Below, piece after piece: positions 28,343 to 39,634 of a stretch of 64,000 bases of DNA. Numbering within the stretch: position 1 is the first letter of the stretch; the number at the start of each line of letters is the position of its first letter. The stretch comes from Thermoleophilia bacterium. Its GTDB lineage: Bacteria; Actinomycetota; Thermoleophilia; Miltoncostaeales; Miltoncostaeaceae. Location: positions 1-64,000 of the forward strand of contig JADLHW010000024.1 of assembly GCA_020848615.1 (NCBI GenBank). Direction: 5' to 3'. The translations under genes and the position numbers were made by a program. The notes under the pieces were generated by a model. The model searched no databases. It saw only the letters and a list, made by a program, of their open reading frames with translations, and was not told the DNA's origin.

Positions 28343-30013
28343 CTACATGCGGTCGGGGGCGGTCACCCCGACCAGGTCCAGGCCGCACCGCACGACGTCG
28401 CGGGTCGCGACCGTGAGCTCCATCCGGAACGCCTGCACCTCCCGCGCCTCGCCCACCACGCGGCACCGGTGGTAGAAGGCGTGCAGGTCCCGGGAGAGGT
28501 CCTTCAGGTACGCGACCACCCGGTGCGGCGCCCGCCGCTCGGCGGCGTCGGCCACCGTGCGCGGCCACTCGGCGAGGCGCAGCGCAAGCGCCCGTTCGCT
28601 CGGGTCGAGCACCTGAGGCGGCCCGGCGGCGGGGTCGCGCGTCACGCCCTCGGCGGCGGCCTTGGCGAGGATGCTGCAGCACCGGGCGTGGGCGTACTGC
28701 ACGTAGTAGACCGGGTTCTCCTGGCTCTGCTCGCGGGCGAGGTCCAGGTCCAGCTCGAACGCCGTGTCGTGGCTGCGCTCCACCAGGAAGAACCGGGCCG
28801 CGTCGACGCCGATGTCGTCGATGAGGTCGTCGAGCAGCACGATGGTGCCCGCCCGCTTGCTCATGCGCTTCGCCTCGCCGGACTCGGTGAGGCCCACCAG
28901 CTGCATGATGAGCACCTCGAGGGTGTCCGGGTCGAACCCGCCGGCGGCGAGCACGGCCCGCAGGCGCCCGATGTACCCGTGGTGGTCGGCGCCCAGCACG
29001 TCGATCATCCGGTCGCCCATGCGGGCGGCCTTGTCGAGGTGGTACGCGACGTCGGCGGCGAGGTAGGTGGTCCCCCCGCCGGACCGCACCAGCACCCGGT
29101 CCTTCTCGTCGCCGTAGGCGGTGGTGCGGAACCACACGGCGCCGTCGGCCTCGTACGCGTCGCCGCTGTCCACCAGCCGCCGGACGCCGGCCTCCACCCG
29201 GCCGGTCTGGTGGAGGGTCCGCTCGGAGAAGAACTCGTCGTACGACACCCGGAAGCGCTCCAGCGTCCCGCGGATGACGTCCAGCATGAGCTCGCCGCCG
29301 CGCCGGCCGAACAGCTCCAGGGTCCCGGCGTCCGGCGGCGACACCCGCCCGTCGTACGCGTCGCCCAGTTCCTCCCGCAGCGCCCGGGCGATGCCGATGA
29401 CGTACTCCCCCGGGTACCCGCCCTCCGGCATGTGCGGCTCCGCCCCCACGAGCTCCGCGTAGCGGGCCGCCACGGACGCCGCGAACAGCTCCATCTGCGC
29501 GCCGTGGTCGTTGATGTAGTACTCGCGGGTCACCGCGTGCCCCACGAACGACAGGATGCGGCCCACCGAGTCCCCGTAGGCCGCCCCGCGGGCGTGCCCG
29601 ATGTGGATGGGGCCCGTGGGGTTGGTGGAGACGAACTCCAGCAGGATCCGCTCCGGCCGCGCCACGCCGCCGCGCCCGAACCCGGGGCCCGCCGCGGCGA
29701 CCGTGCGGACGGCGTCCGTGACCCAGGCCGGGGCCAGCCGCAGGTTCAGGAAGCCGGGGCCCGCGACCTCCACGGCCTCCAGCGCCGCGGCGGTGTCCGG
29801 CCGCGCCCGCAGCCGCTCGGCGAGGGCCTCCGCGATCTCGCGGGGGTTCCGCTTCGCCGCCCGGGCGAGGGTCATCGCCACCGGCGTCGCCAGGTCGCCG
29901 TGCTCGGGCCGGGCCGGGGGGCCCAGCTCCACGTGCACGCCGGTGGTCCCGGCCACCGCGGCGGCCTCCGCGGCGATCGCCGCCTGCAGGGAGGTGAGGG
30001 GGGCCGTGGTCAC
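28343..30013 (-). CDS. argS: Arginyl-tRNA synthetase
   Basis: A 556-residue class I aminoacyl-tRNA synthetase charging tRNA-Arg. The N-terminal about 110 residues form the arginyl-specific domain. The HIGH signature is NPTGPIHIGHARG, and the catalytic core contains YYINDHGAQ. The KMSKS-like loop is KRMSKRAGTIV, and the C-terminal anticodon-binding (DALR) domain includes PVYYVQYAHARCCSIL and ends DLVGVTAPDRM. Length is normal. The GTG at 30013 gives the natural start (MTTAPLTSLQ). RlmH lies 30 bp upstream and the holin-family gene 13 bp downstream, all on the minus strand. Confidence 0.97.
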   Translation of the reverse strand: MTTAPLTSLQAAIAAEAAAVAGTTGVHVELGPPARPEHGDLATPVAMTLARAAKRNPREIAEALAERLRARPDTAAALEAVEVAGPGFLNLRLAPAWVTDAVRTVAAAGPGFGRGGVARPERILLEFVSTNPTGPIHIGHARGAAYGDSVGRILSFVGHAVTREYYINDHGAQMELFAASVAARYAELVGAEPHMPEGGYPGEYVIGIARALREELGDAYDGRVSPPDAGTLELFGRRGGELMLDVIRGTLERFRVSYDEFFSERTLHQTGRVEAGVRRLVDSGDAYEADGAVWFRTTAYGDEKDRVLVRSGGGTTYLAADVAYHLDKAARMGDRMIDVLGADHHGYIGRLRAVLAAGGFDPDTLEVLIMQLVGLTESGEAKRMSKRAGTIVLLDDLIDDIGVDAARFFLVERSHDTAFELDLDLAREQSQENPVYYVQYAHARCCSILAKAAAEGVTRDPAAGPPQVLDPSERALALRLAEWPRTVADAAERRAPHRVVAYLKDLSRDLHAFYHRCRVVGEAREVQAFRMELTVATRDVVRCGLDLVGVTAPDRM

Positions 30014-30043
30014 GGCGGGGAACGATATCCGCCCCGCCCGCCG

Positions 30044-30529
30044 TCAGTGGGGATACGGGTGTCCCCGCAGGATGCAGGCGGCCCGGTACAGCTGCTCGGT
30101 GAGCACGACCCGGGCGAGCTGATGCGGCATGGTGAGGGCGCCCAGCGCGAGCCGCTCGTCGCATTCGGCCAGGAGGGCGTTGTCCACGCCGGATGCCCCG
30201 CCCACGATGAACGCCACCGGCCGGCCCGAGGCGAGGTGCTTCTCGAGCCACGTCGCGAACGCCTCGCTGGAGGCCGGCTGACGGCCCTCGGGGTCCAGCG
30301 CGACCCGCCAGGCGCCCCGGGCGATGCGACCCCGGATGCGGTCCGCCTCGGCGGCGCGGGCGCGGGCCTCCCCGCGCTGCAGGGGCTCCGGCTCGACCTC
30401 GTCGGCCCGGAACGGCAGCATCCCGCCCAGGCGTTCCTCGTACAGCCGGCCCGGGGCGTCGTGCGGCGGGCGCAGCCGTCCGACCGCCACCACCTGCACC
30501 CGCGGCGACCGTGGCGCGCGGCCGCTCAC
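30044..30529 (-). CDS. rlmH: 23S rRNA (pseudouridine1915-N3)-methyltransferase RlmH
   Basis: A SPOUT-class methyltransferase that modifies pseudouridine 1915 of 23S rRNA. Key segments are VQVVAVGRLR at the start, the SAM-knot region VAFIVGGASGVDNALL, and the conserved C-terminus MPHQLARVVLTEQLYRA ending GHPYPH. The GTG at 30529 overlaps the stop of the M48 gene (GTGA) and gives 161 residues. GTG 30499 would give 151 residues starting exactly at the family N-terminus and is a good alternative. The gene is cotranscribed with argS. Confidence 0.93.
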   Translation of the reverse strand: MSGRAPRSPRVQVVAVGRLRPPHDAPGRLYEERLGGMLPFRADEVEPEPLQRGEARARAAEADRIRGRIARGAWRVALDPEGRQPASSEAFATWLEKHLASGRPVAFIVGGASGVDNALLAECDERLALGALTMPHQLARVVLTEQLYRAACILRGHPYPH

Positions 30530-31794
30530 CCCGCCGGGTCCGGGTGGCGGGCGGCGTACTCCGCCATTCCGATGCGCTCGATGGGCTCGGGGTGGGTGCC
30601 GAACCACAGCTGCAGCGCGCGCGGGGTGTCCGGCATGCCGAGCGCGGTCCGCACGAAGCCCTGGAACAACCGCACCTGGGCGGACGGGTCATGGGTCGTC
30701 CGGAGGGCCGTCCAGTCGGCCTCCCGCTCATACGTGCGGCTCACGTAGTTGGCGAACGGCGTCGCCAGCGTCCCCGCCACCGACGCCGTCGCCGCCACGA
30801 TCGCCAGACGCCGCACCACCAGGCGGGTCCCCGCACCACCGGGCGTCGCGGCCCTCCCCCACCCGGTGCGCGCGCCCACCAGGGCGAAGCACAGCAGGCA
30901 GCCGGGGATCGCCATGAGCGCGCCGGTCGTCGTGCCCTTCAGCACGTGCCGGTGCTTGACGTGCGCCAGTTCGTGGGCGACCACCGCGAGCACCTCGTCC
31001 CGCGGGAAGTCGCGCAGGAGGGTGTCGTACAGCACGATGCGCCGGCTCGCTCCCAGGCCCGACACGTAGGCGTTCGCGGCCACGGTGCGCCGGGAGGCGT
31101 CGTTCACCAGCACCCGGTCCGCCGGAACCCCCTCCCGGCGGGCGAGATCCAGGATCTGCCGCGACAGGACCGGGTCGTCCAGCGGCCGCGTCCTCTGGAA
31201 CAGCGGGTCGATGACCACCGGCGCCAGCAGCGTCGACAGGTAGACGAACCCGGCGACGCCGCAGGCCAGGCCCGCCCACCACAGGCGGGGCGCCCGCGCG
31301 ATGAGCACCGCGGCACCGCACGCCACCCCCGCCGAGATGACGGCCTCCACCGCCGTGCCCTTCGCGACGTCCAGCAGCCACGCGGGCGGGTTCTGCGTGA
31401 CGATCCCGTACTCCCTGCCCCACCCGTACCGGGCGGCTCCCACCGGCAGCCCCGCCAGCGTCTCGGCCACCGACAGGCCCGCACCGAACAGCAGGCCCGC
31501 GCGCCACGCCCGGCCGCGGGCCAGCCGGGCGAGCGGACCGCCCCAGCGGCCCGAGGTGCCGGCCACCGCCAGCGCCACCGCGGGTGCGATGGGCACGGCC
31601 GCCACCGCCATCGCCCACACCCCGCGGCGGTACTGCCGGTTGCGCGCCAGCTCCCCGGGGTCGAAGTAGTCGCCCACCGGGGGCGTGGGCGCGGACGGCA
31701 CGCCGTGGGACCACAACTTCCAGCGCAGGAGGGCGGTGACCCCGGCGGCACCGGCGACGGCGACGCCCGCGATGCCCAGTGCCCGGCGGTCCAT
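30526..31794 (-). CDS. M48 family membrane zinc protease (Ste24/HtpX-like)
   Basis: A 422-residue integral membrane protease. Several transmembrane helices precede the active site. The zinc motif HELAH occurs in VLAVVAHELAHVKHRHVL, preceded by NAYVSGLGASRRIVLYDTLL, the classical Ste24/M48A layout. The third ligand is probably the Glu in YEREADW near residue 388. It probably acts in membrane protein quality control. The ATG at 31794 was chosen because TACGAT lies 6 nt upstream and the first helix follows at once. The stop overlaps rlmH. Confidence 0.92.
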   Translation of the reverse strand: MDRRALGIAGVAVAGAAGVTALLRWKLWSHGVPSAPTPPVGDYFDPGELARNRQYRRGVWAMAVAAVPIAPAVALAVAGTSGRWGGPLARLARGRAWRAGLLFGAGLSVAETLAGLPVGAARYGWGREYGIVTQNPPAWLLDVAKGTAVEAVISAGVACGAAVLIARAPRLWWAGLACGVAGFVYLSTLLAPVVIDPLFQRTRPLDDPVLSRQILDLARREGVPADRVLVNDASRRTVAANAYVSGLGASRRIVLYDTLLRDFPRDEVLAVVAHELAHVKHRHVLKGTTTGALMAIPGCLLCFALVGARTGWGRAATPGGAGTRLVVRRLAIVAATASVAGTLATPFANYVSRTYEREADWTALRTTHDPSAQVRLFQGFVRTALGMPDTPRALQLWFGTHPEPIERIGMAEYAARHPDPAG

Positions 31795-31800
31795 CGGGCG

Positions 31801-31806
31801 ATCGTA
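31801..31806 (-). promoter_or_regulatory. Putative -10 box (TACGAT) of the M48-rlmH-argS transcript
   Basis: TACGAT on the minus strand ends 6 nt before the ATG at 31794, without a Shine-Dalgarno sequence. It would produce a leaderless M48 mRNA. Confidence 0.5.
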
Positions 31807-31870
31807 GCGGCCCCGCGCCGCGTATCGTGCGGAGTGGGCCGCGGTTTCGAGATGGGGAGAGGAGCCCGCC

Positions 31871-32602
31871 ACGCCGATCGCCGTCCTCAGCGACATCCAC
31901 GGCAACAGCCAGGCGCTGGCCGCCGTCCTGCGCGCCGCCCAGCAGCGCGGCGCGGGCCGCTGGTGGTGCGTCGGTGACGTCGTGGGCTACGGCGCGGACC
32001 CGGTCACCACGCTCGGGCGCGCGCTCACCGAGGCCGAGCGGTGCCTCGCGGGGAACCACGACCTGGGCGCCTCCGGGCGCATCCCGCTGGAGAACTTCAC
32101 CTCCTGGGCGCACGACGCGCTGGTGTGGACCCAGGAGCGGCTGGGCCCCGTCGGCATGGCGAAGCTCGACCGGCTGCAGCCGCTGGACCGCGCCGAGGGC
32201 GTCGCCCCGATGTTCCACGCGAGCCCCCGCGACCCGGTGTGGGAGTACGTGCTGGAGCTGGGCCAGGCCCGCGACGCGCTGGAGGCCGTGCCCGCGCTGG
32301 TCACGTTCATCGGGCACACGCACCTGCCGGCCGTGTGGCAGCTCGGCGAGGACGGCGCGGTGCGCGGGTTCGAGCCGTCCACGGGCCCGTTCGCGCTCAC
32401 CCCGCACCGGTGGCTGGTGAACCCGGGGTCGGTGGGACAGCCGCGGGACGGCGATCCCCGGGCGTCGTGGGCGCTGTACGACCCGGACGCCGGCACGGTC
32501 GAGATCGTCCGCACGCCGTACGACGTGGCGGCCGCCCAGAACCAGATCCTCAACGCCGGCCTGCCCGCCGGCCTCGCCACCCGCCTCGCCGAGGGCCGGT
32601 GA
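31871..32602 (+). CDS. Calcineurin-like metallophosphoesterase (YfcE/PF12850-like), apparent ACG start
   Basis: A cytoplasmic metallophosphoesterase of about 243 residues. All metal-binding motifs are present: LSDIHGN near the start, VGDVVGYGADP, LAGNHDLGA, and FIGHTHLP. The frame carrying LSDIHGN has no ATG or GTG upstream of it; GAGGAG lies 6 nt before an ACG codon at 31871, exactly where a start is expected. GTG 31982 is the first standard start but would remove the first metal motif. The start is therefore an unusual ACG or a base error. The stop overlaps the next gene as GTGA, placing it first in an operon with a desulfurase-like and a TusA-like gene. Confidence 0.8.
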   Translation, partial: TPIAVLSDIHGNSQALAAVLRAAQQRGAGRWWCVGDVVGYGADPVTTLGRALTEAERCLAGNHDLGASGRIPLENFTSWAHDALVWTQERLGPVGMAKLDRLQPLDRAEGVAPMFHASPRDPVWEYVLELGQARDALEAVPALVTFIGHTHLPAVWQLGEDGAVRGFEPSTGPFALTPHRWLVNPGSVGQPRDGDPRASWALYDPDAGTVEIVRTPYDVAAAQNQILNAGLPAGLATRLAEGR

Positions 32603-33765
32603 CCGGGGCGTACCTGGATGCCGCCGCCGCGGTGCCACCCGCCCCGGAGGTGCGCGACGCGATGGCCCGCGCCGTCGCGGAGCTCTGGGCGTCGCCGTCC
32701 GGGCTGCACCCGCACGCCGCGGGACCCGCCGCGGCGCTGGAGGAGGCCCGCGCCGAGGTGGCCGCGCTCATCGGCGCGGCCGACCCCGACGAGGTCGTGT
32801 TCACCTGCGGGACCTCCGAGGCCCGGGCCCTCGCCGTGACCGGGCTGCTGTCCGCCAACCGGCACCTCGGGCGCCACGCCGTTCTCACGGCACTGGAACA
32901 CCCGGCCGTCGCCACGGCCCTCCTGCGCCTCGCCGCCGACGGCGTGACCCACACGACCGTCGGCGTGGATCACGAAGGCCATGCGGATCCCACCGCACTG
33001 GCGACCGCGGCGGGACCCGGGACGGCGCTGGTGTGCCTCCACCACGGCCACCACGAGGTGGGGACCCTGCAGGACCTCGGCGCGCTCATCCCCGCCGCCC
33101 GCGGCGCCGCCCCGGACGCCCGGATCCACGTGGACGCCGCCGAGACCGCGGGGCTGCTGCCCCTGGACGTGCGCGCCCTGGGGGCCGACGCCGTGACGGT
33201 CGGCGGACCGGCGATGGGCGCCCCCGCGTGGAGCGGCGCGCTGTGGGTGCGTCCCGGCGCGGGCCTGCATCCGCTGGTCGGCGGCGGCGCCCAGGAGGGC
33301 GGCAAGCGCGCCGGCCCGCAGGACTTGCCTGGAATCGTGGGCCTGGGCGCCGCGGCACGCCTGGCCCGTGCGTCGATGGGCGCCCGCGCCGCCCACCGCC
33401 GCGCGATGGGCGAGCGCCTCGCCGGGCTGCTCGTGGCGGTGCCCGGCGTCACCCTCAACGGCCCGTCCCCGCACCGCCGCGTGCCGGGCAACGTGCACGT
33501 CTCGGTGCACGGGGTGGAGGGCGAGACCCTCACGGTCGCGCTCGGCACGCGCGGGGTGGCCGTGTCCCCCGGCTCGGCGTGCACCGCCGATGCCGGCAAG
33601 GCCTCCCCCACGCTGCTCGCCATGGGCGCGGACGCCCGTGACGCCCACTCCGGGGTGCTGCTGGGGGCGGGCGACGCCACCACCGCGGGGGAGGTCGACG
33701 CGGCGGCGGCGGTGTTCGCGGAGGTCGTCGCGGCGCTGCGGGCCATGAGCCCGGTGCGGCCGTGA
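32599..33765 (+). CDS. Cysteine desulfurase-like protein (class V aminotransferase fold) lacking the PLP lysine
   Basis: A 388-residue protein with IscS/NifS-like sequence throughout: YLDAAAAVPP at the start, CGTSEARALAV (phosphate loop), LEHPAV (stacking His101), HVDAAETAG with Asp179, and the sulfur-carrying loop SPGSACTADAGKASP with Cys328. Where family members have S-x-HK-x-x-G-P-x-G-x-GALWV, this one reads GGPAMGAPAWSGALWV, so the Schiff-base lysine is Ala205 and its neighbour His is Pro204. The PLP-contacting Asn and Gln equivalents are also changed, to His152 and Glu182. It should not form a normal internal aldimine. The cysteine is kept, suggesting a persulfide carrier or scaffold. 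GTGA overlaps join it to both neighbours. Confidence 0.85.
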   Translation: MTGAYLDAAAAVPPAPEVRDAMARAVAELWASPSGLHPHAAGPAAALEEARAEVAALIGAADPDEVVFTCGTSEARALAVTGLLSANRHLGRHAVLTALEHPAVATALLRLAADGVTHTTVGVDHEGHADPTALATAAGPGTALVCLHHGHHEVGTLQDLGALIPAARGAAPDARIHVDAAETAGLLPLDVRALGADAVTVGGPAMGAPAWSGALWVRPGAGLHPLVGGGAQEGGKRAGPQDLPGIVGLGAAARLARASMGARAAHRRAMGERLAGLLVAVPGVTLNGPSPHRRVPGNVHVSVHGVEGETLTVALGTRGVAVSPGSACTADAGKASPTLLAMGADARDAHSGVLLGAGDATTAGEVDAAAAVFAEVVAALRAMSPVRP

Positions 33766-34034
33766 CCCCGGTGCGCGTGGTGGATGCGCTGGGCGCGCCC
33801 TGCCCCGTGCCCGTCCGGCTCCTCGCCCGGGCCATGGGCCGGGTCGCCCCCGGCCAGGTGGTGGAGCTGCTGGCCGACGACCCGCTCATCGAGGTGGACC
33901 TGCCGGCGTGGTGCCACGCGCGCGGGCACCGCCTGCTGGAGCTCAGCCGCGACGGCGCCCGCTGGCGGGGCCTGGTGCGGCGGGGTCAGCCGGGCGGCGG
34001 CGCGGCGTCCGAGGCGGCGGCGCCCCGGTCGTAG
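33762..34034 (+). CDS. TusA/SirA family sulfur-carrier protein
   Basis: A 90-residue protein with the TusA fold. The signature LGAPCPVPVRLLARAM holds the CPxP motif with the persulfide cysteine Cys14, and the VVELLADDPLIEVDLPAWC strand-helix follows. TusA proteins take sulfur from a cysteine desulfurase and pass it to thiolation or cofactor pathways. The start overlaps the desulfurase-like stop (GTGA), so the pair is tightly coupled. The Ala/Gly-rich last 17 residues overlap the convergent membrane-protein gene by 49 bp. Confidence 0.9.
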   Translation: MTPVRVVDALGAPCPVPVRLLARAMGRVAPGQVVELLADDPLIEVDLPAWCHARGHRLLELSRDGARWRGLVRRGQPGGGAASEAAAPRS

Positions 34035-35146
34035 GCCCACGCGGCCACCACGCCGCGCACCCGCTCCAGCTCGTCCTCGATGAACTCCCGCCGGTTCTGG
34101 GCCTCGCTGACGGCGACCACCGCGAAGTACAGCGCCGCGAACGCCCCCAGCAGGGTCGACACCCGCAGCAGCGGCTCGCTGAGCACCACCGAGCCGCGCA
34201 GGCCGTCGTACTCGGCGAGCACGTGCAGGGCGTCGCCGGTCCGCCCGGTCCAGGCCTCGGTGGTGGGCCGGTCCACGGTGAGGAGCCCGAAGCCCACGAA
34301 GAACACGGCGGTGATGAACCCCACGACCGCCACGCGCGCCACCAGGCCCACGTGCAGCGCCACCGCGACGTTCGCCCGCTGGATCCCGGACATCCGCTCC
34401 ACGCGCGGGGTCACGCCCGACGCCACCAGCCCGGCGGCCGGCGTGGCGATCGCGCGCCCGCGCAGCTCGTCGTCCACCCGCGGCCGGTAGAGGCCCCGGC
34501 GCTCGCCGGAGAGCCCCACCACCAGCGTGAGCACCGCGAGCACGCAGAACAGCAGGAGGACGCTCACGAACCGCCAGCCCTCGATGGTTCCGAGCGTCTG
34601 CCACACCTCCGCGGCGAGGAACAGGAACAGCAGGACGGCGAGCAGCAGCACCAGCGCCCGCCCCGCGATGGAGGCGATGTCACGCAGGGCCGACAACGCC
34701 GAGCGGCCCGTGTGGACCAGCACGGACACCACGCCGAGGCTGATGAGCACGTACAGCACGCCGGCGACCACCGCGCCGCCGGCCAGCACGCCCGCCGCCC
34801 GGACCGGGCCGTCGCCGACGGCGAGGTCCGCCACGGCCGGCACGACGACGAACACCCCGGCCTCCACGAACCCCACGCGTTCCGGCGGTGCCGTCCACGC
34901 GCGGCCCCGCAGCCGGTTCGCAAGCCCCAGGCCGGCGAACGCCGCGAGCAGCGCCCCCGCCGCGGCCGCCGCCCGCGACCACGGCGGCCAGTCGGGCCGC
35001 AGCACCAGGGCGAGCCCCACCACGAACAGCACCAGCAGCGCCGGCCGCAGCCGGGTGAGGACGTCCTCGCGCGGGTCGAAGTCGCGGGCCAGGTGCGGCA
35101 CGCCCTCGCGGCGGAACCAGTCGTCGAGGGAAGGGTCATCTCGCAT
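33986..35146 (-). CDS. Multi-pass membrane protein of unknown function
   Basis: A 386-residue protein with about eight transmembrane helices, including the pairs LRPALLVLFVVGLALVL, VLLLAVLLFLFLAAEVW and FVSVLLLFCVLAVLTLVVGL. A soluble N-terminal segment contains RDDPSLDDWFRREGVPHL. A long extracytoplasmic loop carries AWTGRTGDALHVLAEYDGLRG, followed by a last helix and an acidic helical tail (RREFIEDELERVR). No family is recognised. The ATG at 35146 gives a plausible start. Its 3' end overlaps the convergent TusA gene by 49 bp. It is divergent from the c-di-GMP operon, with a 26-bp palindrome between them. Confidence 0.75.
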   Translation of the reverse strand: MRDDPSLDDWFRREGVPHLARDFDPREDVLTRLRPALLVLFVVGLALVLRPDWPPWSRAAAAAGALLAAFAGLGLANRLRGRAWTAPPERVGFVEAGVFVVVPAVADLAVGDGPVRAAGVLAGGAVVAGVLYVLISLGVVSVLVHTGRSALSALRDIASIAGRALVLLLAVLLFLFLAAEVWQTLGTIEGWRFVSVLLLFCVLAVLTLVVGLSGERRGLYRPRVDDELRGRAIATPAAGLVASGVTPRVERMSGIQRANVAVALHVGLVARVAVVGFITAVFFVGFGLLTVDRPTTEAWTGRTGDALHVLAEYDGLRGSVVLSEPLLRVSTLLGAFAALYFAVVAVSEAQNRREFIEDELERVRGVVAAWAYDRGAAASDAAPPPG

Positions 35147-35220
35147 GGGTGATCCCCGAAGGGTGAAGCATCCCGCCCAGCATCCGATAACGAGGGTACC
35201 GGCACCACCGGCCGGCGGGT

Positions 35221-35246
35221 CGCAACCCCGCCCGGGCGGGGTTGCG
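35221..35246. promoter_or_regulatory. 26-bp perfect palindrome between divergent genes
   Basis: CGCAACCCCGCCC is followed at once by its exact reverse complement. It lies 74 bp upstream of the membrane-protein start (35146, minus) and 45 bp upstream of the GGDEF gene start (35292, plus). No gene ends nearby, so termination is unlikely. A dimeric regulator site or an mRNA-leader hairpin for the c-di-GMP operon would fit. Confidence 0.45.
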
Positions 35247-35291
35247 GTCCGTCACCCCCGCGGCGGCGTCCCGGTTCCACCAACCCCATCG

Positions 35292-37664
35292 GTGAACACC
35301 CCAATCGACCTCCACCAGCTCCATTCGGGCCACGGTCCGGCGTGGCAGCGCGCCGCGCGACGGGTCCGCGTGCTCTCGCACCTGCAGGTCACGACGCTCG
35401 TCGCCGTGGGCCTGCTCATGATCGCGGGCAGCCTCGCGATCGGCCGTCAGATCGTGAGCTCCCAGTCGGCGCACGCGCGGGTCACGCACGCCCAGCTGGA
35501 GCTCATCTCCGCGCGGGAGGTCTTCCAGGCGCTGGAGAACGACGCGTGGTTCGCGGCGGCCAACGACGGGCCCCGCGGGACGGGCCTGCCCACCGGGTGG
35601 ATCCGGCGGGCGGTGAGCCTGAGCGGGCGCTTCACCCGCCTCGCCGAGGACGCCGCCACGATCTCCGGCGGGGCCGGCCGCGCCGCCGGCGAGGCCCGCC
35701 TGCGGCTCGCCCGCGTGGAGGAGGCCACGCGGGTCCCCACCGGCGTGAGCGCCCGGGACGCGCGCGAGGCCGCCCACCGCATCCGCATCCGCAGCACCGA
35801 GTTCAACCAGGCCGTCGACGGGTGGGTGGCCGCCTACTCGCGCGAGCTGCGCCGCATCGACGACGACCAGGAGGCGTTCACCCGCCGCGTCCTGGTGCTG
35901 TTCGCGATCGCGGTCGCGGTGCTGTGCCTGGCGGGCGCGTGCTGCTGGGTGGCGCTCAACCGGTCCCGCGGGCGCGTGGTGCAGGAGATGCGGCGCGCGG
36001 TCTCCGAGCAGAGCGCCCTGCGCCGCGCGGCCACCGAGATCGCCTCGTTGTCGGACACCGGGGAGATCCTGGACGTCATGGCACGCGAGGTCGCCGGCGT
36101 GCTGGGCGTCGAGCGGGCGTCGGTGGTGCGGTTCGCGGGGGCGGAGGGCCGCATCGCGGGGTCGTCGGTGGACGGCGAGGACCGGGGCTCGGTGCTGCCG
36201 GAGGACGGCGCGGACGTCGTCGCGGTGGTCCGCCGCACCGGGGCGGCCGCCACCGTGAGCGACTACGCCGAGGTCGCCGGCGACCCGACCGTGCGCCGGC
36301 TGGTGGAGGCGGGCACGCGGTCCGCGCTGGCCGCGCCCATCCACGTGGACGGAGCGGTGTGGGGCGCCCTGGTCGCCGGGTCGGCCGTGCCCGGGCGGTT
36401 CACCGGCGCCGACGTCGAGCGGCTGGAGCGGTTCTGCAGCCTCGCGGGCCTGGCGGTGACCAGCGCCGAGAACATCGCCCGGCTGTCCGACCAGGCCGCG
36501 AGCGACCCCCTGACGGGCCTCGCCAACCACCGCGTGTTCCGGGAGCGCCTGGCGGTGGAGGCCGAGCGGGCACGGCGCCACGGCCGCGAGCTCGCCCTCG
36601 CCGTGTTCGACATCGACCGCTTCAAGCTCGTGAACGAGGCGCTGGGGCACCGCGGCGGCGACGCCGTGCTGGTCGACCTGGGGCAGCGGCTGGCCGCCGC
36701 ATGCCGCGACGGCGACCTGGTGGCCCGCGTGGGCGGCGAGGAGTTCGCCTGGATCATGCCCGAGACCGACTCGTGGGGCGCCTGGTGCGCCGCCGAGCGG
36801 ATCCGCGTGGAGGTGGCCGGCACGCCGCTGGCGGGGCTGGGCCACCACAGCGTGTCGGCCGGCGTGTGCGACCTCGCCCAGGCCGGCGGGGAGGGCGACC
36901 GGCTGTACGAGCTCGCCGACGGGGCCGTGTACTGGGCGAAGGCCCACGGCCGGGACCTGTGCGTGCGGTACAGCCCCGATGTCGTCGTCGACCTGTCCGC
37001 CGCCGAGCGCGCGACGCGGCTCGAGCAGCGGCGCACCCTCGACGCGGTGCGCCTGCTCGCCCAGGCCGTGGACGCCCGCGACCCGAACACGCAGCGCCAC
37101 TCCGAACGCGTGGCGGAGATCGCCGCCGAGCTCGCCCAGGCCATGGGCTGGGACCACGAGCGCATCGAGCTGCTGCGCGAGGCGGCGCTCGTGCACGACG
37201 TCGGCAAGATCGGCGTGCCCGACTCGGTGCTGCTGAAGGCCGGGCCGCTCACGCCCGACGAGCGCGAGCGGATCCAGGCGCACGCCGCGCTGGGCGCCCA
37301 GATGGTCGCCGACATGCTCTCCGCCGAGCAGGTCGCGTGGGTGCGCGGCCACCACGAGCGGTGGGACGGCGGCGGGTACCCGGACGGCATCGCCGGGGAG
37401 CAGATCTCCGACGGGGCGCAGGTGCTCATCGTCGCGGACGCCTTCGACGCGATGTCCGCCGACCGCCCGTACCGGCGGGGCCTGCCGCTGCCGGACGCCT
37501 ACCGGGAGGTCCTGGACGGGTCCGGGTCGCAGTTCACGCCGGCGGTGGTGACGGCGATGACCGCGGTGATGGACTCCGGGCGCGTCGCGGCGATCCTGGA
37601 GGCGGCCGCCACCACGCAGCCCGCGGCCCGGCCCGGCGACGACCACGGCCCGGCGGCGCGATGA
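35292..37664 (+). CDS. Membrane GAF-GGDEF-HD-GYP cyclic-di-GMP enzyme
   Basis: A 790-residue bifunctional c-di-GMP protein. Two transmembrane helices (about 31-52 and 198-222) enclose an extracytoplasmic sensor of about 145 residues, mainly helical. A GAF domain follows (about 240-400), then a GGDEF domain with an intact GGEEF active site near residue 480 and an upstream RDGD inhibitory I-site. The HD-GYP domain near 590-780 has intact metal and signature residues (HDVGKIGVPD; HHERWDGGGYPDG), so both synthesis and breakdown look possible. The GTG at 35292 gives the natural short cytoplasmic N-terminus. The stop overlaps the next gene as ATGA. Confidence 0.93.
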   Translation: MNTPIDLHQLHSGHGPAWQRAARRVRVLSHLQVTTLVAVGLLMIAGSLAIGRQIVSSQSAHARVTHAQLELISAREVFQALENDAWFAAANDGPRGTGLPTGWIRRAVSLSGRFTRLAEDAATISGGAGRAAGEARLRLARVEEATRVPTGVSARDAREAAHRIRIRSTEFNQAVDGWVAAYSRELRRIDDDQEAFTRRVLVLFAIAVAVLCLAGACCWVALNRSRGRVVQEMRRAVSEQSALRRAATEIASLSDTGEILDVMAREVAGVLGVERASVVRFAGAEGRIAGSSVDGEDRGSVLPEDGADVVAVVRRTGAAATVSDYAEVAGDPTVRRLVEAGTRSALAAPIHVDGAVWGALVAGSAVPGRFTGADVERLERFCSLAGLAVTSAENIARLSDQAASDPLTGLANHRVFRERLAVEAERARRHGRELALAVFDIDRFKLVNEALGHRGGDAVLVDLGQRLAAACRDGDLVARVGGEEFAWIMPETDSWGAWCAAERIRVEVAGTPLAGLGHHSVSAGVCDLAQAGGEGDRLYELADGAVYWAKAHGRDLCVRYSPDVVVDLSAAERATRLEQRRTLDAVRLLAQAVDARDPNTQRHSERVAEIAAELAQAMGWDHERIELLREAALVHDVGKIGVPDSVLLKAGPLTPDERERIQAHAALGAQMVADMLSAEQVAWVRGHHERWDGGGYPDGIAGEQISDGAQVLIVADAFDAMSADRPYRRGLPLPDAYREVLDGSGSQFTPAVVTAMTAVMDSGRVAAILEAAATTQPAARPGDDHGPAAR

Positions 37665-39634
37665 GCGGCGGGGGCGACGGCGGCGTCGCGCGCCTGCACG
37701 AGCTCGTGGCCGGGCAGCTCGCCGAGGGCGAGCGCCTGCGGGCCGCGGAGGCGACGTACCGCGCCCTGGTGGAGAGCTTCACGGACCTGCGCACCCGCCA
37801 CGACGTCTCGGGCCGGATCACCTGGGCGAGCGACGGCGCCGGGGCCGTCCTCGGGTGCTCCCCGCAGGAGCTCGCCGGGATGGCGCCCGCGGACCTGCTG
37901 CACCCCGAGGACGCGGCGCCGTTCGCCTCCGGCCTGGCCGCCGCCCGGCGTGGCGGCGAGGTGGTCACGGTGACCTATCGCGTGCGGCACCGCGAGGGCC
38001 GGTGGCTGTGGTTCAGCAGCGCCCTGCACCCCGACGGGCCGGCGGGCGAGGTCCTCGCCGCCACCAAGGACGTGACGCCGTCGGTGCGCACCCAGTACGG
38101 CCAGGGCGCGTTGCACCGCGTGGCCGCCGCCCTGGTGCGCGAGGTGGGCGAGGAGGAGCTGTTCGCCCTGTGCGCCCTCGAGGTCGCCCGCCTGCTGGAC
38201 GCCGACACCACCCTGCTCGCGCGGTACCAGCCCGAGGGGGCGCTTGTGCTCGCATGCCGGGGCGAGCCGGCCATCGAACCCGGCCAGGTGCTGCCCGGCA
38301 CCGGCGGAGGGGCGATCGACGAGGTGCGCCGCACCGCCGCGCCCGCCCGGGTCGACCACCGCGACCTCCCCGCCGGCGCCCCCCTGCGGACCCCGCCGGG
38401 CATGGATCTCCACGCGGTGGACGCGGCCGTGCCGGTGTTCGTGCGGGGCGGCGTCTGGGGCGCCCTGATGGCCGCGACGCGCGAGGGCAGCCCGCCGCCG
38501 GAGGCCGAGCTGTGGATGGCGCGCATCGCCGAGATGCTCGGCCTGGGGATCGCCGCGGCGGCGCAGCGCACCCAGCTGCGGGCGCAGGCCACCAGCGACC
38601 CGCTCACCGGGCTGGCGAACCACCGGACCTTCCACGAGCGGCTCCACGCCGAGGCGGCGCGGTCCCGGCGGTCCGGGGCGTCCCTGGCGCTGGTGCTGCT
38701 CGACATCGACCGCTTCAAGTCCGTGAACGACCTCCACGGGCACCAGTGCGGCGATGAGGTGCTGCGCACGATCGCGGCGGTCCTGGCCGAGGACGCCCGC
38801 ACCACCGACCTCGCCGCCCGCCTGGGCGGCGAGGAGTTCGCGCTGCTGCTGTCGGACTCCGGGGACGATGGGGCCCTCGCCGTCGCCGAGCGGCTGCGGG
38901 CCGCCATCGCCGCGACCCGCGTGCAGGGCCCGGGGCGGGTGACCGCGTCGTTCGGCGTCGCCTCCCTGGGCCCCGACGGCGACCCGGACGAGCTGGTGCG
39001 CGCCGCCGACCGTGCCCTGTACGCCGCGAAGGGCGCGGGGCGCGACCGGTGCGTCCTGCACGACGCCGACCTGGAGCTGCTGATGCCCGCGCCGGTGGAC
39101 GACACCGGCCACGAGGTCGTGCCGGTGCGCGCCCTGCGGGCCCTCGCGCGCAGCGCCGAGGGGGACGCCGGTCTCGGCCCGGGCCACGGCGAGCGCGTCG
39201 CGAACCTGGCGGCGGCCCTCGCCACCGCGATCGGGTGGGGGTCCCGCGAGGTCATGCGCCTGCACGACGCGGCCCTGGTGCACGACGTGCCGCGGGAGCT
39301 GGTGGCCGAGGTCCTCGCCGGCGAGCAGCTGGACTGGGTGCGCCACCACGCGGCCCGGTGGGACGGCGGCGGCCGTGCCGCCCCGGCCGCCCCGCACGGC
39401 GAGGCGATCCCGGAGGGCGCCAGAATCATCGCGATCGCGGACGCCTGGGACGGCTTCCGCACCGCCCGTGAGGGGGCCCGGCCGGCGTCCACGGCGGACA
39501 CCCTGCGGCGGGTGCGGCGCCGCTCGGGACGCCACCACTGGCCCGCGGGGGTCGAGGCCCTGGCCCGGCTGGTGGAGGTGGGTGCCCTACCGCGCACCGC
39601 AATTCCCGCTCGTAGCGCGACACATTCGATGTGA
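37661..39634 (+). CDS. PAS-GAF-GGDEF protein with a degenerate HD domain
   Basis: A 657-residue cytoplasmic partner of the preceding gene. A PAS domain (about 20-145) is followed by a GAF domain (about 150-300) and a GGDEF domain with GGEEF near residue 388 and an RTTD I-site, so it should make c-di-GMP. The C-terminal region resembles HD-GYP, but HDVGK is replaced by HDVPR and the GYP triplet is lost after WDGGG, so phosphodiesterase activity is not expected. It may bind ligand or dimerise with the active neighbour. The ATG at 37661 overlaps the upstream stop. A hairpin at 39640-39666 ends the operon. Confidence 0.9.
   Translation: MSGGGDGGVARLHELVAGQLAEGERLRAAEATYRALVESFTDLRTRHDVSGRITWASDGAGAVLGCSPQELAGMAPADLLHPEDAAPFASGLAAARRGGEVVTVTYRVRHREGRWLWFSSALHPDGPAGEVLAATKDVTPSVRTQYGQGALHRVAAALVREVGEEELFALCALEVARLLDADTTLLARYQPEGALVLACRGEPAIEPGQVLPGTGGGAIDEVRRTAAPARVDHRDLPAGAPLRTPPGMDLHAVDAAVPVFVRGGVWGALMAATREGSPPPEAELWMARIAEMLGLGIAAAAQRTQLRAQATSDPLTGLANHRTFHERLHAEAARSRRSGASLALVLLDIDRFKSVNDLHGHQCGDEVLRTIAAVLAEDARTTDLAARLGGEEFALLLSDSGDDGALAVAERLRAAIAATRVQGPGRVTASFGVASLGPDGDPDELVRAADRALYAAKGAGRDRCVLHDADLELLMPAPVDDTGHEVVPVRALRALARSAEGDAGLGPGHGERVANLAAALATAIGWGSREVMRLHDAALVHDVPRELVAEVLAGEQLDWVRHHAARWDGGGRAAPAAPHGEAIPEGARIIAIADAWDGFRTAREGARPASTADTLRRVRRRSGRHHWPAGVEALARLVEVGALPRTAIPARSATHSM

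Follow-up and report, generated by a model that had tools for sequence, protein, structure and literature searches.

A lysine-less IscS-like protein encoded beside TusA in a Thermoleophilia bacterium, with a possible role in sulfur relay

Cysteine desulfurases are defined by their PLP chemistry, and members of the IscS family in which this chemistry has been lost have been described previously. IscS of A. fulgidus shows no desulfurase activity owing to a Lys to Asp replacement and supplies one cysteine to coordinate the [2Fe-2S] cluster carried by IscU, and IscS1 of M. acetivorans is likewise without the lysine (PMC7585200). Aspartate is the natural residue of A. fulgidus IscS 2, and the D199K mutant is deposited as PDB 4r5f. 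The other system relevant here is the PLP-dependent IscS of E. coli in complex with TusA (PDB 3lvj, 3lvk), in which Trp45, Glu49, and Asp52 of IscS are needed for TusA binding (PMC2854127).

The window, the whole stretch of 64,000 nucleotides that was analysed from a Thermoleophilia bacterium (contig JADLHW010000024.1), contains three operon genes arranged head to tail on the plus strand, encoding a metallophosphoesterase, an IscS/NifS-like protein without the lysine (hereafter pseudo-IscS), and a TusA-like protein. These features, and a further one located elsewhere in the same genome, are the following:

31871..32602, plus strand: calcineurin-like metallophosphoesterase, operon gene 1 (PF12850, E 4.8e-14)
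32599..33765, plus strand: pseudo-IscS (pseudo-desulfurase), 388 aa, GTG start (PF00266, E 2.8e-48)
33208..33213, plus strand: Pro204-Ala205 codons (CCG GCG), replacing the PLP-holding His-Lys pair
33580..33582, plus strand: Cys328 codon (TGC), position of the persulfide cysteine, SPGSAC loop
33762..34034, plus strand: TusA-like sulfur carrier, 90 aa, CPVP (PF01206, E 6.9e-17)
33801..33803, plus strand: TusA Cys14 codon, CPVP motif
G000 contig C128:2592-4100 (L115), outside the window: IscU-MnmA fusion of the same genome

Pseudo-IscS resembles A. fulgidus IscS 2 (PDB 4hvk, 4eb5, 4eb7, 4r5f) in having the IscS fold and the cysteine loop and in lacking the Schiff-base lysine. However, the A. fulgidus protein keeps Asn155 and Ser203, has Ser at the Thr243 site, and has IscU as its partner, whereas pseudo-IscS, which shares an operon with TusA and belongs to a separate branch, has lost Asn155, Ser203, and the Thr243 site and carries an invariant Lys334. 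With E. coli IscS-TusA it shares the fold (TM ~0.9), the Cys328 loop, and the TusA partner, but it has lost every catalytic residue checked. A lysine-less IscS is a published kind of protein, and the idea is less unprecedented than the original prediction for this DNA implied. What is new according to the literature searched is a more degenerate lysine-less IscS that is fixed throughout an order as the sole IscS-type protein detected in it, shares its operon with a metallophosphoesterase and TusA, and is accompanied by an IscU-MnmA fusion devoid of the third IscU cysteine.

Fold and catalytic residues of pseudo-IscS

The class-V aminotransferase fold of pseudo-IscS was recognized through PF00266 and through IscS/NFS1 structures in the PDB (TM ~0.9), with human NFS1 and IscS from bacteria and archaea as the top folds. 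The score against TIGR03402, the NCBIfam model of NifS/IscS, was 262.7 bits, below the curated cut-off of 530.75. An AlphaFold model built from 27 orthologues reached a mean pLDDT of 91.2 and a pTM of 0.90, with pLDDT values below 50 in only two segments, residues 228-237 and residues 328-332, the latter being the cysteine loop.

The ungapped alignment places Pro204-Ala205 at the His-Lys pair of IscS, and other exchanges with respect to IscS include Asn155 to His152, Gln183 to Glu182, Ser203 to Gly202, Thr243 to Pro240, and the substrate Arg to Leu354. The roles of the PLP lysine, His205, Gln183, Thr243, and the substrate Arg, as well as the E. coli numbering, are taken here to be those of canonical IscS. 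These five residues are all present in 73/73 lysine-containing IscS/NifS relatives and all missing in the 18 order members of the same alignment. The residues that replace the PLP and substrate contacts differ from one order member to another, while Asp179 is present in all 18 and His101 in 17. Lys334, located just past the cysteine loop, is invariant in the order clade and occurs in only 3/73 canonical proteins. A working PLP desulfurase is therefore ruled out with near certainty.

The original prediction had quoted His101, His152, Asp179, Glu182, Pro204-Ala205, and Cys328, all of which check out, and its statement that the protein cannot work as a normal desulfurase is well supported, given that the lysine and four further residues are missing in every order member aligned. 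The derivation from a desulfurase that it proposed is equally well founded on the best folds (IscS/NFS1), the alignment, and the tree with lysine-bearing relatives. A check for the lysine is needed when proteins are annotated as cysteine desulfurases.

Conservation, partners, and phylogeny

The order covered by the search of 42 genomes is presumably Miltoncostaeales. Orthologues of pseudo-IscS were found in 38 of these genomes (48-75% identity, some of them fragments), leaving four without a match (G005, G026, G039, and G041); some assemblies are incomplete. All 31 orthologues that cover the site lack the lysine, its place being taken by Ala, Ser, Pro, Thr, or Cys, so that, with regard to the fixation of Ala205 raised earlier, the absence of lysine is fixed and the identity of the replacing residue is not. 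Cys328, whose loop reads SPGS[AT]C or APGS[AT]C, is kept in 30/30 order orthologues covering its site (27/27 of those aligned), and dN/dS values of 0.14-0.36 for eight pairs indicate purifying selection. No lysine-bearing IscS was seen in the protein search of the 42 genomes, which returned, besides SufS and the pseudo-IscS orthologue, a few class-V proteins of SufS-like or other type; judged from these sequences, pseudo-IscS is the sole IscS-type protein found in the order. The order thus keeps a PLP-free IscS under selection beside TusA.

The pseudo-IscS and TusA ORFs share 4 bp (GTGA), and the stop of the metallophosphoesterase overlaps the start of pseudo-IscS likewise, in agreement with the earlier description of an overlap with a TusA gene of intact CPxP motif and of an upstream metallophosphoesterase. 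The TusA domain was confirmed with PF01206 (61.5 bits, cut-off 28.6), and the CPxP cysteine is retained along with two Asp residues discussed in PMC2854127. In most of the order loci read, metallophosphoesterase and TusA genes flank the pseudo-IscS gene, and PF01206 was detected in 36/42 genomes, usually as one copy adjoining pseudo-IscS. The proposed coupling to TusA is thus supported by an operon kept across the order and by a TusA that is usually the only copy of its genome. No DsrE-like gene was seen in the operon among the order loci read. At the positions equivalent to the E. coli residues required for TusA binding (PMC2854127), the window protein has Ala for Trp45, Ala for Glu49, and Glu for Asp52, and, in our reading of the alignment, acidic residues are kept at the Glu49 and Asp52 equivalents in most order members.

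SufS scored above its curated cut-off in 39/42 order genomes, and that of the source genome carries the lysine motif TGHK, which clearly marks it as the predicted intact, active desulfurase of this bacterium. MnmA was found in nearly all order genomes, fused to an N-terminal IscU domain, and most genomes encode two NifU_N proteins, namely a SufU adjoining SufS and the IscU-MnmA fusion. The 19 fusions read keep the first and second IscU cysteines and the NPCxxCN...C motif of MnmA, and all 19 have HG where relatives carry the third IscU cysteine, in the motif KMHCS. The MnmA of the source genome also has a CC pair, and because of this pair and the C-type cysteines it is assigned to the C-type as defined in PMC11784392. 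No desulfurase gene adjoins mnmA in the order loci read, and mnmA is unlinked to the operon of metallophosphoesterase, pseudo-IscS, and TusA. Other families of the class encode the same protein families in one canonical operon, but there the IscS has the lysine and adjoins IscU and mnmA; in two other families, IscU-MnmA fusions also adjoin a lysine-bearing IscS (L125, L164, and L166). The literature search returned nothing direct on the IscU-MnmA fusion. This fusion elsewhere in the genome, the order-wide fixation, and the losses of Ser203, Thr243, and the substrate Arg go beyond what had been noted before.

Further lysine-less IscS groups occur in the class and phylum, characterized by SSND (Lys to Asp), [AG]H[TA]IHGP, ASDL, and SHQ/ANQ at the site. 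All of them retain Cys328 and most adjoin TusA and IscU, with DsrE-like genes in the loci read. They resemble pseudo-IscS in lacking the lysine, in keeping Cys328, and mostly in adjoining TusA, but differ from it in the replacing residues, in the metallophosphoesterase, which was not seen beside them, and in having a stand-alone IscU whose third cysteine is kept where read. A cluster of TusA, in some cases a DsrE-like gene, SSND IscS, and IscU was observed in several families of the phylum (L121, L136, L141, L142, L146, L148, L150, L152-L154, L158, L160, and L170) and is kin to A. fulgidus IscS; the literature search gave nothing direct on a TusA-DsrE-IscS cluster.

In the careful tree, every lysine-less group is recovered as a clade with support. 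The lysine must have been lost separately two to four times in this tree. One common origin of all these groups was rejected, as a single loss appeared in 0 of 200 bootstrap trees (0%), the starred branches alone being compatible with one origin. A. fulgidus IscS 2 groups with the SSND proteins (100/99), and the pseudo-IscS of the order is a separate clade (100/100), so that the two do not form one lysine-less clade. In a quick tree, the pseudo-IscS of the order was sister to the ASDL and SHQ/ANQ proteins (94 SH-aLRT), a relation also suggested by the Lys334 that they share with it; the careful tree neither supports nor contradicts it. The repeated origin of "dead" copies suggests that they probably have a real job other than desulfuration. 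Taken with the order itself, these repeated losses beside TusA and IscU point to a second, non-catalytic function of IscS able to survive alone, for which providing a cysteine ligand or exchanging persulfide are candidates. Such a function would bear on the disputed route of tRNA thiolation by MnmA, through a persulfide or an Fe-S cluster (PMC11784392).

Candidate functions of a PLP-free IscS

A persulfide relay, scaffold, or regulator, as suggested in the original prediction, would be compatible with these data. The preferred reading, to which a probability of about 0.5 is given, is that pseudo-IscS is a PLP-free IscS shell whose Cys328 cooperates with TusA in conveying sulfur to MnmA. SufS or another sulfur source would provide persulfide sulfur, which pseudo-IscS would hold or position on Cys328; sulfur would then be exchanged between Cys328 and Cys14 of TusA, and would end on the tRNA thiolase MnmA, fused to the IscU domain without the third cysteine. 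A persulfide on Cys328, the binding of TusA, and the delivery to MnmA are each inferred. This reading is ranked first because the catalytic residues have been lost while Cys328 and Asp179 are invariant under purifying selection, because the gene order of metallophosphoesterase, pseudo-IscS, and TusA is conserved, and because TusA is usually single and adjoins pseudo-IscS. The intact SufS, the retention of MnmA as an IscU fusion with its C-type cysteines, and the location of other lysine-less IscS groups next to TusA, IscU, and DsrE-like genes argue in the same direction. Against a relay count the lack of linkage between mnmA and the operon, the presence in order genomes of SufU, to which SufS normally passes its sulfur, and the apparent change of two of the three E. 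coli TusA-binding residues in the window protein.

Ranked next is a tentative alternative in which Cys328 would coordinate an Fe-S cluster bound to the IscU part of IscU-MnmA, replacing the third IscU cysteine and helping to load the cluster of C-type MnmA, with TusA supplying the sulfur for thiolation. The inactive A. fulgidus IscS, which gives its cysteine to the [2Fe-2S] cluster on IscU (PMC7585200), is a precedent for this role, and the loss of the third cysteine in 19/19 fusions fits it well, as a ligand is missing exactly where it would be needed. In relatives, moreover, the lysine-bearing IscS genes adjoin IscU-MnmA, or IscU and MnmA. However, the tree sets the pseudo-IscS of the order apart from the A. 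fulgidus group, and its operon partner is TusA and not IscU; the role as a cluster ligand is possible but rather unlikely. A further conceivable scheme is a rewired tRNA thiolation, in which, after the loss of all lysine-bearing IscS in the order, a PLP-free IscS shell would be supplied by another source with sulfur or a cluster and, with TusA, would serve IscU-MnmA, the cysteine of pseudo-IscS replacing the third cysteine of IscU. Such a scheme is speculative and, taken as a whole, unlikely.

More doubtful is a scaffold or regulator that binds TusA in another sulfur pathway, such as one of thiosulfate or sulfane sulfur, unrelated to tRNA thiolation, where Cys328 would be structural or redox-active. 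The lysine-less groups found elsewhere with TusA and DsrE-like proteins point to trafficking of sulfane sulfur, and the unlinked position of mnmA would agree with a separate pathway, but the DsrE-like gene is not seen in the operon of the order, and MnmA is kept in nearly all genomes while lysine-bearing IscS is found in none.

A few enzymes of the PLP fold function without the lysine. With Asp179 invariant and His101 nearly so, pseudo-IscS might be thought still to act on PLP or PMP with another residue as base, but the protein has also lost the phosphate contacts (Ser203, His205, and Thr243), the substrate Arg, Asn155, and Gln183, and the replacements vary between members, so this appears very improbable. 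Least credible of all is a sequence error, which had been considered beforehand in the form of lysine-bearing homologues with an error in this DNA, or a decaying relic; no point in favor of either was found, and both are ruled out by 31 of 31 orthologues without lysine from separate genomes, the invariant Cys328, the dN/dS values, and the conserved operon.

Start of the metallophosphoesterase gene and neighboring genes

The conserved N-terminal part of the metallophosphoesterase has no ATG, GTG, or TTG nearby, the first in-frame GTG being at 31982, and its start is probably the ACG at 31871. Within the start region (31859-31885), the Shine-Dalgarno-like stretch GGAGAGGAG was observed 6 bases upstream of this ACG. 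Among the relatives read, the start position is occupied by ACG in four (L074, L077, L079, and L080), by TCG in two (L076 and L082), and by GTG or ATG in the others; the gene may possess a conserved non-canonical start codon. On the minus strand, adjoining the operon (28343-31905), an arginyl-tRNA synthetase, an RlmH-like SPOUT methyltransferase, and an M48 peptidase are encoded. Downstream, two long GGDEF-type ORFs lie adjacent to each other (34527-39634), the first of which (34527-37664) contains GAF, GGDEF, and HD domains by Pfam, while the translation of the second, judged by eye, resembles that of the first.
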